64,000 nucleotides of DNA from Tribonema minus (taxonomy: Eukaryota; Sar; Xanthophyceae; Tribonematales; Tribonemataceae), in assembly GCA_017506865.1 (NCBI GenBank), contig JAFCMP010000057.1:682001-746000 (forward strand), read 5' to 3'. Shown here in pieces: positions 3,816 to 64,000 of the stretch. The translations under genes were made by a program, and so were the position numbers. Under the pieces are notes generated by a model. That model was not told where the DNA came from and searched no databases. It saw only the letters and a list, made by a program, of their open reading frames with translations. Numbering within the stretch: position 1 is the stretch's first letter; each line of letters begins with the position of its first letter.

Positions 3816-6800
3816 ATGCAACGCCGAGGCAAGCCCAGCCTGGAGCTGCGAACGCCAGGAGACAAAGATGCTCCCAACACGCCAAGGAAAATTGTTACTG
3901 TCGGAGAGCATCATGAGGGCAGCGGGAGATTATATATGGTACGCCACTCTGAGCACTTGCTACTCCGTTGTGCATGTTTCTGTCAGTACGCGCCTGCAGC
4001 AGCCTTCGGAGTGAATCGTGCCGCAGTTCAAATATCTGTTGTGTCTACTGAAATCGTTGCAGGCGCACAAGATGTTGAAGCTGCGAGACCAGTTTGACGG
4101 AGCCAAGACATGTCTGACGGGGGAGCAGGCGGAAGCTGTGTCTGGCATCTTCAATGGAGTGGTGGTATATGTCAATGGCTACACGGAGCCGCCGCTGGAG
4201 GTACGCTTCGAGAATGAGTTTGACACGCCTGCGGTGCAGTCAGCATTGATATGCGTCACAAAGGGGCAAGCTCATCACAAAGCGCCTCTCGGCATGCACC
4301 AGACGAATGCAGCAGTCAGCTACACCTACAGTAGCGTTGCATATTCTGATACGAACACAATGTACGTAGCCTCGTTTGTGAAAAGCACTGTGCCATAATC
4401 AAAAGCTTCAAGTCTGTACCAGTGCATGCTAGTGTCGTGGTCATGAAGCTTCAACCTGCGGCATGTGCGGAATGTGCAGGTGCTGAAGGATCTCATGGCG
4501 CAGCGCGGCGGGCGTGTGGATGCCTATTACACTCCGGACGTGACGCACATGGTGGCAAATGTGCTGCCAGAGACCAAGCTCAAGGAACTGCGCAAGCTCA
4601 AGCGGCCGCCAATGGTGGTGGTCGCCAAATGGATCACTGACAGCGTGGCAGCTGCCAGGCTGCTGCCGACAGGGCCCTACACTGTGCCTGGTCTTGCACC
4701 GCAGAAGGCTGGCATCAGCAGTTTCCTGCGCACAGTGCCATCGGCGGCGGCACCACTTGAAGCAGCGCCAGCGCCGGCCTGCCCAGTTCCACATGCAGCT
4801 GCCGGTTCTGGTAGTCAGGGCCCTGCGATCGCTGCTGGCGGTAGTCAGAATGGCAAACGAAGCAGCAGTTCAGGCAGTGCCGGAGCCTCTTTGCCAACGG
4901 GTTCTGCTGTGAGCGGGAGCGATGCGGAGGCAGCACGCCTGCAGCGGCATCTGCAGCAGCAGCAGCAGCAGACGGTGCAGCAACAGCAGCAGCAGAAGCC
5001 ACCGGAGCAACTGCAGCAGCACCAGCACAGTCAGGTGGTCCCTCAAGAACGCCAGCAGCAGCACCTACCAGAGCAGCATCATCATCAGCTGCAGCAGCAT
5101 CAGCAGCTACCGCACTCACAGCAGCAGCAAAAGCAGCCGCAGCAACAACCCAACGAGCGACAACACTCTGAGCAAGGACTGCCTGGTCCTGGCGAGCGTG
5201 CACGTGTCATTAATCCATATGCTCCGCGCCCGCGCAGCAGCACACCAGGCATAGCAGCTTTTGCATCCACCAGCACGAGGACAGCTTTGCCCTCTGGTAG
5301 TGAAGCAGCGCCTGCCGCCATGCAGCAGCCACCTGCAGAGGAGGCAGAGGTTGGCGGGCCTGGGCAGTCTTATCATGGCGCCAGTTCCGCTGCACCGATC
5401 ATGCGGCAGACCAGCAGCAGTAGCAGCGCTTGCAATCAGCGAACCAGCGATGCACAAGAGACTGGCAGCAAGCGTCCGTTTGAGAGCAGTGCAAGCAGCA
5501 GCAGCTGTACACCCGAGAAGCAACTGCAGCAGCAGCAGCAGCTGGTGAATCGCGCAAGCAGTCCGGCAGCAGACGTTGTCACTGCAGGAGCATCGCCGTC
5601 TGCAACGGGTCTGGGGAGGGGGAGAGCGGAGGGCGGGGAGAGCAAGCGGCGACGATATGAGTGGGGGCAACCGCGCACCAGCAGGGAGGACCCCGATTTT
5701 GTGGCGACGTTCTTCCGCCACAGCCGGCTACACCACATTGGTCATTTCACGGCGCGCTACAGCAAGATGGCTGCGGAGTATCTGCGGGAGCGCGATGCAA
5801 ATGGGGGCAAGGCTGTCTACAAGTAAGCGTCGATGCTGGCAGTGCACGTTGCCCGCATCTTTTACTGAGTGTGAATGGTCCTTAAGACTAGCATGAACGA
5901 AGCACTTCAACCGGTATGTACTGTAAATTCTCATGTATGTATGTATTACGCTGCGCCTGTAGTGTGCAGATGTTCTGTTCTGGACATAAATGTTGGTATG
6001 AGTGTTCATAAAAGTATGTTGGAACGGTGCTGGCAATGATTGTTGAGTATATTAGCTTTGCGCAATCGCTGTACAGTCAAGCACACTGTGAGGAAACTGC
6101 AAGTTGTTCTCAACATTGACAGGAAAACGTTTCAGCAGTGCTACAGAACACCAGCATGTCTTAGCTGTTGCATGCATGTTGCGTGCACGCACACCCACCA
6201 CGCGTGCAATTACACACACCCATATAAGCAGTTGTGGGCCCCTGACCATTCACTGTACGTCATTGCAATATGCTGGTGACGCACGACGCTACCATCACCA
6301 GCATACGCTGAACTCATGTGTGTCCTGTCACGACTGATCTGTCGTGGCCCACTTGCTATCTCCGCCTGCAGCGGCCCTCTTGGCGAAGGACAAACGCGTG
6401 TGGTGCTTCACGTCGACATGGACTGCTTCTTTGTAAGTGGGGCGGTGCACTCATTGCCATCAAGAACGCATCGCTGACGTAGTTCAAGCTATTGCATGCG
6501 CTGGTGCATTGTGTGTCAGCCCTGTGCTTTTGCAGACTGCAGGGCAGGGTGCTGACTACACAACCAGTATCCGTTTTTGTACAGGATATACGGCAAACTC
6601 TGCATAGTGGCTGCGTATTGTGGCCGCCCATTGCTTTGATGTCAATGCTCTGTAAATGCCCAGTAAATCAACGTGAGCAGTGAAGACTGAGACTTACCAG
6701 CACACATAGCCACCACCACTGTAACTGACAGCTTCACTGTTAATTCATCAAAATGTCAGCTGGTTCGGCTTTGAGAGTGTGTGGGCTCACTGCTGCCTGT

Positions 6801-44100: not shown

Positions 44101-47100
44101 GAGTTCTTCGTGGAGCGCTGCTGCTGCCGGCATCGTGTCAGTCAAATACTCGCGGGTGACTCTACCAGCTTCTTGTTGTGTCGGTGAATCGGTAATCAGT
44201 CATGGGGAGACAGCAAAGCCAGCGACACTGGGACCTGACCCTAGGCCCTCCGTACCCCTTCAGCGCCCCACAATACCCTTGTATCACTATGTACCCATGT
44301 GCATGGACACAGTGCTCACCCCCCCCCCCCCCCCCTCCCCCGCCCGCCCACCCAGGGTGGAGGCCGCAGAGGCCGCGGCGGCGCGCGCCGTGTCCGCCGC
44401 CGAGCGCCTTGCGCGCGAGTGGCGCACCGTTGCCGCCGCCCTCTCCACCGCCATGGAGCGCTACAGCGCCATGACTGCCGCCGCCCTGCGTGCGGAGGTG
44501 AGCGGTGACACACGCGTGGTGGCTGCGCTGGAGGCGGCGGAGGCGGCGGCGGCGGAGGCCAACGCTGCGGTCAGCAGCGGTGAGTGATTGAAGGCTGTTG
44601 CTGTGCAGGACTATATGATGTGGCAGTGAGCAAATGCTTGAAGTTCTCGGTCAGGTCATGATTTTTGTCTGGTCTGCTGATAATGCTTGTGATGTCATGG
44701 CTTCAGCAGTGTGTCCACGGGCGTGACCTATTATTGATGGCAGTCACGATTTAATGGATCTGAAAACTTTGCACGATGTCCGTGAGCTGCATCGCCATTC
44801 GTCCTGGTGCAGATACTGACACGAGGCGAAGCTGTTCGTAACAGTGACACTGACACTTGTTGCTTATCATACTGCTTCTCACTGCTGTACGTTGCGATGC
44901 AGGCTCGAGTGCGTCCGCAGACCCCGCTGCGGCGCGCCACCTGGTGGACACCTTTGGCGGCAGGCTCACGGCACTGGACGCGACCACCACCTCCGCTCAG
45001 GTACATACCGTATGTACTTCACCTCTGCTGAGGTGCATGCAGTATGTATTTCAATGTGTTCCACCTCCGCTCAGGTACGTACAGTATGTATTTCACCTCC
45101 GCTCAGGTACATACAGTATGTACTTCACCTCTGCTCAGGTACATGCCGTATGGTGGCCACCTGACTGGCCCCGCTCACAGACACTGCCAGTACCTATTGC
45201 ATCAAAAGTTGACAGGATGAAAGGCATGATGCCAAGCCACTGGTCGTGGCCGCAATGCTCTGGCCAGAACAGCTGCGGGGCAGCGCACGGAGCTGCCTAG
45301 CATGCGCACACACTCGTTGCTCGACCGTGCAATGCTGCAAACGCCAACACCTACTACACTCCATGTGTGCATACGCTGCCCCTGCACCACCCTTCAACGC
45401 GCCAACTTCAGTGAGTGTACATGCTGTACGTGCGTCCACCCTTCCATCAAACTAAGGAGGCCGTGGCTGAGGCCACGCTCAGAGCCGAACCTTTCCGTAC
45501 GCCCTAATCCCTAAGCCCGAAGCCTGAGCCCTGATGACCTGAGCCCTGACCCTACGCCCTAATCCTGCGTCTGTCATTGCAGCGCGCTAAGGAGGCTGCG
45601 AACAGGCAGTGCTTGCCGGCCAAGGCCACATTCATACTAACCCTAACCCTGTCTCCTAATCCAAAACCGTAACCCTTAGCCCAAACCCGAAGCTCTAACC
45701 CTGCATTTGTCATTGCAGCGCGCCAAGGAGGCTGCAGACAGGCAGCGCTCCGCGGCCAAGGCCACATCCTTACCCAACCCTACCCCTAACCCCCATCCAG
45801 GCTTAACCCTGAGCCCTAACCCAAGCCCCACCCTGCGTTGGCCATTGCAGCGCGCACAGGAGGCTGCACACAAGGCAGCGCTCGGCGGCCAACGCCACGC
45901 TCAGAGCTAACCCTAACCCTAATCCCTAAGCCCTTAACCTGAGCCCTGATAACCTAATCTCTAACCCTAATCGCTAATTGGCCATTGCAGCGCGCTAAGG
46001 ATGCTACCGACAAGGCAGCGCTCGGCAGCCAAGGCCACGCTCAGAGCTCGACCTTACCCTACACCCTAATCCCTAAATTCTAATCCCTGGCAGCCTGAAC
46101 TCTGATCCTAAGCTCAACCCTGCATTTTTCATCGCAGCGTGCTAAGGAGGCTGCGGACAGGCAGCGCTCCGCGGCCAAGGCCACGCTGGACGTCGCCGCC
46201 ACGCGCCTGCAGGGCGCCACCGCCGCCGCCACCGCCGCGGGCCCCACCGCCGCCGGCCTGTGCCGCGCGACCCTCGACGCAGCCAATGAGGTGAGCATCT
46301 GACGTGTGGTGCTGTTGTTGTGGTGGTGGTGGTGATGGTTGTGCTGTTGCTGCGTTTGGGGGTCGCGGCATGGGCGCTGCGCCAGGGCATGAGCGCGGTG
46401 CGGCAGTCCTGTCCTTTGTGTCACCATGACGGTCCCAGGCAGAATGTTGAAGCGAGCAAGCGAAGGCGACACCAGCAGAGACGCCTGAACATTGTGCGCG
46501 CCTGCTCATTACTCGCATGCCAAGGCCTTGTTGTACCTGCGGTTCAGCGCATTACGCGAGCTGCACGCAACATGTGCTACACGTTGTCATACAACGTCCA
46601 CCACACTCTGACAACGCACACACTGATGATTCCCCCCTGTGCGCGTGCAACAGGCGGTCGCCTCCGCTGTGTGGATGCTGCGCCGCGCGGCAGAGGGCGA
46701 GGCCGCCGCTGGCACGCCCGAGGCCGTAACTGCCGCTGCCGCCACAGCGCTCGGCAAGGTGGCGCAGGCCGAGCAGCACGTGCAGCGCACCGTGCAGCGC
46801 GCCGCGCAGGCGCAGGGCAGGCGCCGCGCGGCCGCTGCGAGGGTGAGTCACCGTTTGAAGTCTCGTGTCACCGCTTGAAATCTTGTGTTGCTTGCGTAGA
46901 GTGCATCATGCCGTGATGGAATCTGAGTGCTGCACATAGTTGTGTGGAGTTAGATTGCCACGAAGAAATGCTTACGCTGAACCTGCCGTGTTATCGCTGA
47001 CGCACAGCTTGTGTCTGCTGAACCCACATGACATGTTCTGACACTCAAACTCAACTGTCTGTGCTTGCGTACATTTTGACAGCTGGAGGAGATCTGCGCC

Positions 47101-58133: not shown

Positions 58134-58137
58134 GCAG

Positions 58138-58222
58138 TAGGGTTAGGGTTAGGGTTAGGGGCAGGGTTAGGGGCAGGGTAAGGGCCAGAGATAGGGTTAG
58201 GGTTTGAGATAGGGTAAGGCTG
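58138..58222 (+). repeat. Interstitial telomere-like TTAGGG repeat
   Basis: Several perfect TTAGGG units followed by degenerate units such as GGGGCAGGGTTAGGG and GATAGGGTTAGGG. It lies in a presumed intron or intergenic gap and not at a chromosome end, since genes continue on both sides. Confidence 0.9.
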
Positions 58223-63717: not shown

Positions 63718-64000
63718 CTGCGCGCGGTTAAGGTTGAGGTATGGGTCCGCCAGATGCTGATCAACTAGATAGTCACATCACTATGATAATCTTGGTACCG
63801 ATGTGAGTTGTTGCACCAGAACAAATATGTGACCAACTCAGGTTTTCACTCTGCAAAGATCCTGCACAATATCTACTGCACAACCATATACACTTCATTA
63901 CAAAATTAGACTTATCATATAAATGCTTGAGAATGAGGCATACTTCTAAGACAGATTAGACTTATCATAAAAATGCTTGAGAATGAGGCATACATCTAAG
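63718..64000. other. AT-richer right edge of the window
   Basis: Probable intron or upstream region of the gene at 62011-63717. No coding potential is evident. It ends in a tandem repeat. Confidence 0.45.
63905..64000. repeat. 50-bp tandem repeat, truncated by the window end
   Basis: ATTAGACTTATCAT followed by AAATGCTTGAGAATGAGGC begins at 63905 and again at 63955 with few differences. It may be the start of a longer satellite-like array. Confidence 0.85.

Follow-up and report, generated by a model that had tools for sequence, protein, structure and literature searches.

The 64-kb window analysed here (C57:682001-746000, the whole stretch of DNA that was examined) belongs to a genome of 158 Mb in 554 contigs, from which other loci were examined as well. 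The window contains a predicted myosin gene, the head of which is encoded in its upstream part (Pfam PF00063, matched in two pieces with E values of 3e-68 and 1.1e-18), and within the tail-coding part lies an intron with repeated copies of its own splice junctions at both ends. The exons flanking this intron translate into an alanine-rich tail for which no Pfam match was found, and Rfam and tRNA scans of the 64-kb window returned nothing (ARAGORN was run with the bacterial code). Gene models were obtained with an ad hoc gene finder that was self-trained on the same sequence and fuses neighbouring genes; the numbering of the two features as intron 32 and exon 33 in an earlier note on this DNA was not confirmed. 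Coordinates are given in Table 1.

Table 1 Features of the expanded intron and the exon that follows it (window positions)
Feature	Position	Strand	Basis
Expanded intron of 1137 bp within the tail region of the predicted myosin gene	45001..46137	+	Gene model, paralogue exon alignment
5' array: last 13 bp of exon plus donor, five copies	44988..45152	+	TRF period 32, 4.8 copies
Truncated exon-start copy without acceptor	~45447..45486	+	
CCCTAA-like filler, then decoy acceptor 1 (GCAG, 45582)	45487..45582	+	
Unit 1: exon-start copy, filler and decoy acceptor 2 (45718)	45583..45718	+	
Unit 2: exon-start copy, filler and decoy acceptor 3 (45850)	45719..45850	+	
Unit 3: exon-start copy (+1 insertion), filler and decoy acceptor 4 (45990)	45851..45990	+	
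Unit 4: exon-start copy (+1 insertion), filler and acceptor taken as used (46137)	45991..46137	+	
Coding exon, frame open, conserved in the C46 paralogue	46138..46290	+	

Splice-junction arrays at both ends of the intron

The array at the 3' end of the intron was delimited by TRF at positions 45538-46184 (score 515), and its repeats were recovered in pieces by a separate repeat search. All five acceptors, comprising four decoys and the real one, are GCAG and end exactly where the earlier note had placed them. Approximately 48 bp on the 3' side of each acceptor correspond to the start of the real exon, with a mean pairwise identity of 0.84 (range 0.80 to 0.92) that compares with 0.78 for the 15 bases before the acceptor and 0.66 for the filler. 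Six exon-start copies thus accompany five acceptors, the sixth copy being truncated, in agreement with the five to six repeats reported earlier, and those of units 3 and 4 have the same +1 insertion. The degenerate CCCTAA-type DNA said to separate the copies was likewise found, in the form of CCCTAA-like filler. The junction array at this intron is confirmed as real.

The opposite end of the intron carries five copies of the exon end with its donor, in which the last exon bases fall at 45000 (taken as used), 45032, 45074, 45106 and 45138, so that the earlier description of tandem amplification at both intron ends is correct. Both arrays consist of head-to-tail copies of a single unit, with a period of 136 and 4.7 copies at the acceptor and a period of 32 and 4.8 copies at the donor, and by eye they have no sequence in common.

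Splicing of the upstream exon to position 46137 leads into a stop-free exon conserved in the C46 paralogue, and splicing to decoy acceptors 1 to 4 runs into a stop after 29, 63, 19 and 30 codons, respectively; the statement that the decoys lead into stops therefore applies to all four. At the donor end, extension of the exon by 32 or 74 bases causes a frameshift and extension by 106 bases a frameshift into a stop, and the site at +138 is in frame and open, so that use of a decoy does not always destroy the frame. From the reading frame, the paralogues and, for the enolase and FtsZ genes described below, the agreement with known proteins, we infer that the outermost sites are used, i.e. the 5'-most donor and the 3'-most acceptor. 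Each upstream decoy exon start seems to lack an associated donor, and each decoy donor an associated acceptor. Decoys without a partner site would be skipped under exon definition, as judged from general knowledge of splicing.

Comparison with two paralogues

The exons of the gene match those of the C46 and C134 paralogues one by one, and the equivalent intron measures ~380 and ~320 bp in the two paralogues (estimated from alignment ends) versus 1137 bp in the window. The intron position is common to both paralogues, so the intron probably predates the array. No junction array was found in either paralogue; the within-intron test detected no intron copy for any of 113 junction probes (57 donors and 56 acceptors) in three paralogue loci. 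Beyond the exon parts, the two paralogue introns yielded no match by blastn, and the comparison thus defines no empty site for an insertion of telomere repeat. Those exon-start copies from the window that match a paralogue all match one single place in each. The copy in unit 2 has 92-94% identity to the paralogues over 50 bases, and the exon in use is farther from the C134 paralogue than this copy is (87.5% over 56 bases).

Intron gain by tandem duplication does not fit the window intron, since it needs a new intron between copies of an exon segment and the position is already occupied in both paralogues. The C134 paralogue (L036, C134:163001-173000) shows by eye, near positions 4010-4065, a short tandemly repeated piece of exon and then a stop behind the exon start; this gene copy looks damaged downstream of the exon start.

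Recurrence in other genes

Comparable arrays were observed in other genes of the same genome. In an enolase gene (L043, C45:200001-210000), 6 of 17 junctions have extra copies in the intron, giving 14 copies in all (two at the e1 donor, one at the e2 acceptor, three at the e4 donor, one at the e7 donor, four at the e9 donor and three at the e9 acceptor), a few of which are partial at the threshold used (score of at least 18 of 40). At the same score, reversed introns gave 0/17 and segments of equal length from seven other loci 0/119. Eight of the nine enolase exons (e2-e9) translate to plain enolase, and for e1 the donor alone was used. Three joined exons have as their best PDB match chain 6G of 7n6g (E value of 7.8e-35), which we take to be a Chlamydomonas structure. 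The density is what stands out, given that one in three of the junctions tested has decoys and that the gene encodes a conserved enzyme.

An FtsZ gene (L038) carries three copies at 1 of 10 junctions, including one decoy that by eye is without its acceptor, and the gene finder called both the enolase and the FtsZ decoys as additional exons. Further examples comprise six additional copies of an exon end with its donor in L018, two arrays of such copies in L024, acceptor copies with ACTCACTCA-like filler in L037, and an exact 58-bp duplication of a donor, accompanied by telomere repeats, in L031.

Frequency of junction copies

The prevalence of such copies was estimated from ten loci totalling 154 kb, namely the window and nine stretches of 10 kb at fixed coordinates chosen before inspection. 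Among the 521 junctions predicted there, 41 have a second copy within 1 kb, forming 20 donor and 21 acceptor families, compared with 1 of 521 when the same probes were run against random stretches of the other loci. Approximately nine of the 41 families are, in our judgement, repeats of coding or low-complexity sequence, and some of the remainder mark the borders of decoys that the gene finder took for exons; the real number is therefore below 41/521. The stricter within-intron test identified copies for 7/245 donors, 5/244 acceptors, 8/214 intron centres and 2/129 exon centres, with 0/489 in the reversed-intron control. Applied to 15 loci of contig C1 picked for perfect telomere arrays (among L004-L033), it gave 1/59 donors, 3/57 acceptors and 3/57 intron centres, which is no clear rise over the ten-locus sample.

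A wider test returned 22/262 donors, 29/261 acceptors, 32/636 intron-interior probes (three positions) and 8/138 exon centres; the resulting excess of junction over intron-interior probes (51/523 versus 32/636, Fisher P 0.003) is inflated by some decoys called as exons and by the inclusion of coding repeats. Duplicates seem to cluster in certain loci and to be almost missing from the rest, with per-locus junction counts of 18/40 in L043, 12/38 in L037, 8/36 in L038, 3/21 in L042, 2/40 in L044, 2/45 in L039, 1/28 in L040, 1/30 in L041, 0/31 in L045 and 4/214 in the window. Repeats of other kinds were also encountered. A direct repeat of 715 bp with 99.4% identity, its copies ~1.4 kb apart, occupies positions 5585-7911 of L045 and has a predicted peptide that is reverse-transcriptase-like by eye, possibly from a mobile element. 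A 50-bp tandem repeat (1.9 copies, 95%) at 63905-64000 runs to the end of the window.

Origin of the telomere-like filler

Allowing up to one mismatch, CCCTAACCCTAA occurs seven times in the window versus 0.06 expected, with three matches in the array and four at 58137-58202. Bases 8-367 of contig C2 are perfect CCCTAA repeats and TTAGGG-type repeats lie within the first 700 bases of C3, C4 and C7, from which we conclude that the telomere repeat of this genome is TTAGGG. The filler is therefore of the same type as the genome's own telomere repeat, as its earlier designation implied, and is itself degenerate. TTAGGG telomeres are known in green algae, with Dunaliella and Stephanosphaera as examples (PMC7046594). 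Interstitial arrays of the telomere type are common in the genome: the perfect four-repeat 24-mer has 3991 + 3071 matches genome-wide (overlapping matches and telomeres included; reversed control 0), those on C1 representing 21 separate places by hand count. The motif AGGT between pairs of TTAGGG was found 350 times forward and 407 times reverse (reversed control 0), mostly in pure telomere-type runs among the matches listed. Telomere-like arrays also occur outside junction arrays, at 3475-3499 of L034 and 58138-58219 of the window.

Over bases -75 to -16 relative to the acceptor, the fillers of the five units have an identity of 0.656, whereas 500 hexamer-block shuffles averaged 0.56 (sd 0.012) and reached 0.598 at most; a wider stretch from -90 to -16, which in some units takes in a few bases of exon, had the same outcome. 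The five fillers are thus homologous, indicating that a single seeded unit was copied whole with its filler. Across the ten loci, 7 of 25 telomere-like matches lie inside duplicated clusters versus 4.4 expected (P 0.12), and 3 distinct clusters of 27 bear such a match versus 3.7 expected. Of the six enolase arrays, those at e4 and e7 contain telomere-like matches and the other four contain none. Matches are also present in L031 and elsewhere in introns of L018 and L024, and are absent from the acceptor array of L037 and from the array in FtsZ.

These results bear on the mechanism proposed in the earlier note, in which telomerase or telomere-repeat-templated repair at breaks near the junction inserted CCCTAA and drove the amplification. 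The identity of the telomere repeat and the presence of telomere-like DNA in the window array and the other loci just named are consistent with it, and a role of telomerase in break repair has been proposed for mammals (summarised in PMC2246262). The mechanism is nevertheless distinctly unlikely given the homology of the fillers, the arrays that have other fillers and an association with duplicated clusters at about chance level, and telomere filler was rejected as the main cause; of the earlier interpretation, the amplification at both ends, the filler type and the stops behind decoys are supported, and the proposed driver is not. The filler is probably copied intron sequence rather than a cause, and telomerase could still have supplied a seed at the very first step, before unit copying. 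CTAAC-like sequence is a branch-point motif, and CCCTAA is on the sense strand in the window array, as would be expected had the filler been kept for repeated branch points and C-rich tracts before each acceptor. Orientation makes such a role very improbable, and it was rejected as a general explanation: by our own gene calls the 25 matches in the ten loci divide into 12 sense (three of them in this array) and 13 antisense, and the central arrays of the 15 C1 loci are TTAGGG-sense in 12, CCCTAA-sense in two and intergenic in one. Intronic telomere arrays of C1 are thus mostly TTAGGG-sense by these gene calls (12/14), and the weaker matches in the ten loci are unbiased (13/25).

Interpretation of the junction arrays

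We consider it likely that junction-spanning segments were duplicated in tandem and tolerated through use of the outermost splice sites, an explanation that draws on the arrays themselves, the homology of their fillers, the lack of an array in the two paralogues and the reappearance of such arrays in further genes, enolase and FtsZ included. The arrays would represent diverged, minisatellite-like tandem duplications with a unit that crosses the exon-intron junction. A segment starting within the intron, in this case within a degenerate telomere-like array, and extending across the acceptor 48 bp into the exon would have been duplicated several times, and a second, unrelated duplication would have involved the donor at the opposite intron end. 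Were the spliceosome to take the outermost donor and acceptor, the copies would remain intronic; because the protein is left unchanged, they could survive in introns, where they would be nearly neutral, pick up stops as well as indels, and make the intron longer. Exon definition may be the reason why the decoys are skipped. A single simple tandem duplication would have left intron sequence at the 5' extreme of the array, where a piece of exon is found, so that later loss or rearrangement has to be assumed.

The excess of junction over intron-interior probes in the wider test speaks against tandem duplication with neutral retention, as pure neutrality would not predict it, and so does the very uneven spread of duplicates, which ranges from the enolase locus to a locus with none (L045). 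Junctions might themselves be hot spots, copied by a transcription- or splicing-linked process with its greatest effect in certain genes, enolase among them, with introns growing from their edges and exon definition skipping the long rows of intact decoys. This is unlikely, and the strict within-intron test, in which donors, acceptors and intron centres have similar rates, provides a counterpoint to the excess. Retention of splice signals raises the question of regulation, in which decoys used under some conditions would yield stop-bearing transcripts for nonsense-mediated decay, or would allow stepwise splicing of a long intron. Splice dinucleotides are kept in 57 of 69 copies, and a set of 28 copies that cross the junction, drawn from nine of ten curated arrays, retains the two dinucleotide positions in 27/27 and 26/27 cases versus 444/498 over 20 exon-side positions; the stops behind all four window decoy acceptors would also fit. 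This retention is biased by the choice of copies that span a junction, however, and several details are at odds with regulation, namely the +1 insertion in units 3 and 4, the FtsZ decoy without an acceptor, an L024 decoy with GC in place of GT and the window donor decoy that leaves the frame open. A regulatory role is accordingly quite unlikely. Tandem arrays are in general prone to misassembly, but an artefact is extremely unlikely here, as the copies differ by 8-20% in their exon part and carry indels, and comparable arrays are present on several contigs.

Tandem duplication of junction-spanning segments resembles several known systems. Intronic minisatellites likewise consist of diverged head-to-tail units of ~30-230 bp that lengthen introns; the unit described here differs in crossing the junction, so that each copy contains exon sequence and a splice site, and in recurring within one genome in several genes. 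Intron gain through duplication in tandem of coding sequence that carries a proto-splice site has been reported for Drosophila (PMC2891723) and for the potato RdRp gene (PMC4974935). As outlined in those reports, coding sequence with a splice signal is duplicated in tandem and a copy turns intronic, as in the present case, whereas the arrays here add repeated copies to the edge of an intron that already existed, with no new intron in evidence. Short interstitial telomeric sequences of the telomerase-repair type, as summarised in PMC2246262, similarly form short arrays scattered within chromosomes and introns; the array here is instead part of a larger duplicated unit, and its association with duplication is not significant. 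Direct repeats near splice sites (PMC11782384) also lie at intron/exon borders, but according to the outline of that study they measure 4-30 bp and were found by comparing the two borders, in contrast to the longer multi-copy arrays of one border seen here. In searches of largely open-access literature, none of the papers among the matches listed describes tandem arrays of exon-edge and splice-site copies, as judged from titles and the beginnings of abstracts.

Decoys of this type mislead gene finders, as the extra exons called in the enolase and FtsZ genes illustrate. The driver of intron length in Chlamydomonas-related algae is likely evolutionarily ancient and the advantage of long introns unknown, as summarised in PMC8226300. 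If the pattern extends genome-wide, junction duplication would be a simple route to longer introns, and housekeeping genes would contain natural rows of near-identical competing splice sites, making the choice between first and last site, and exon definition itself, directly testable.
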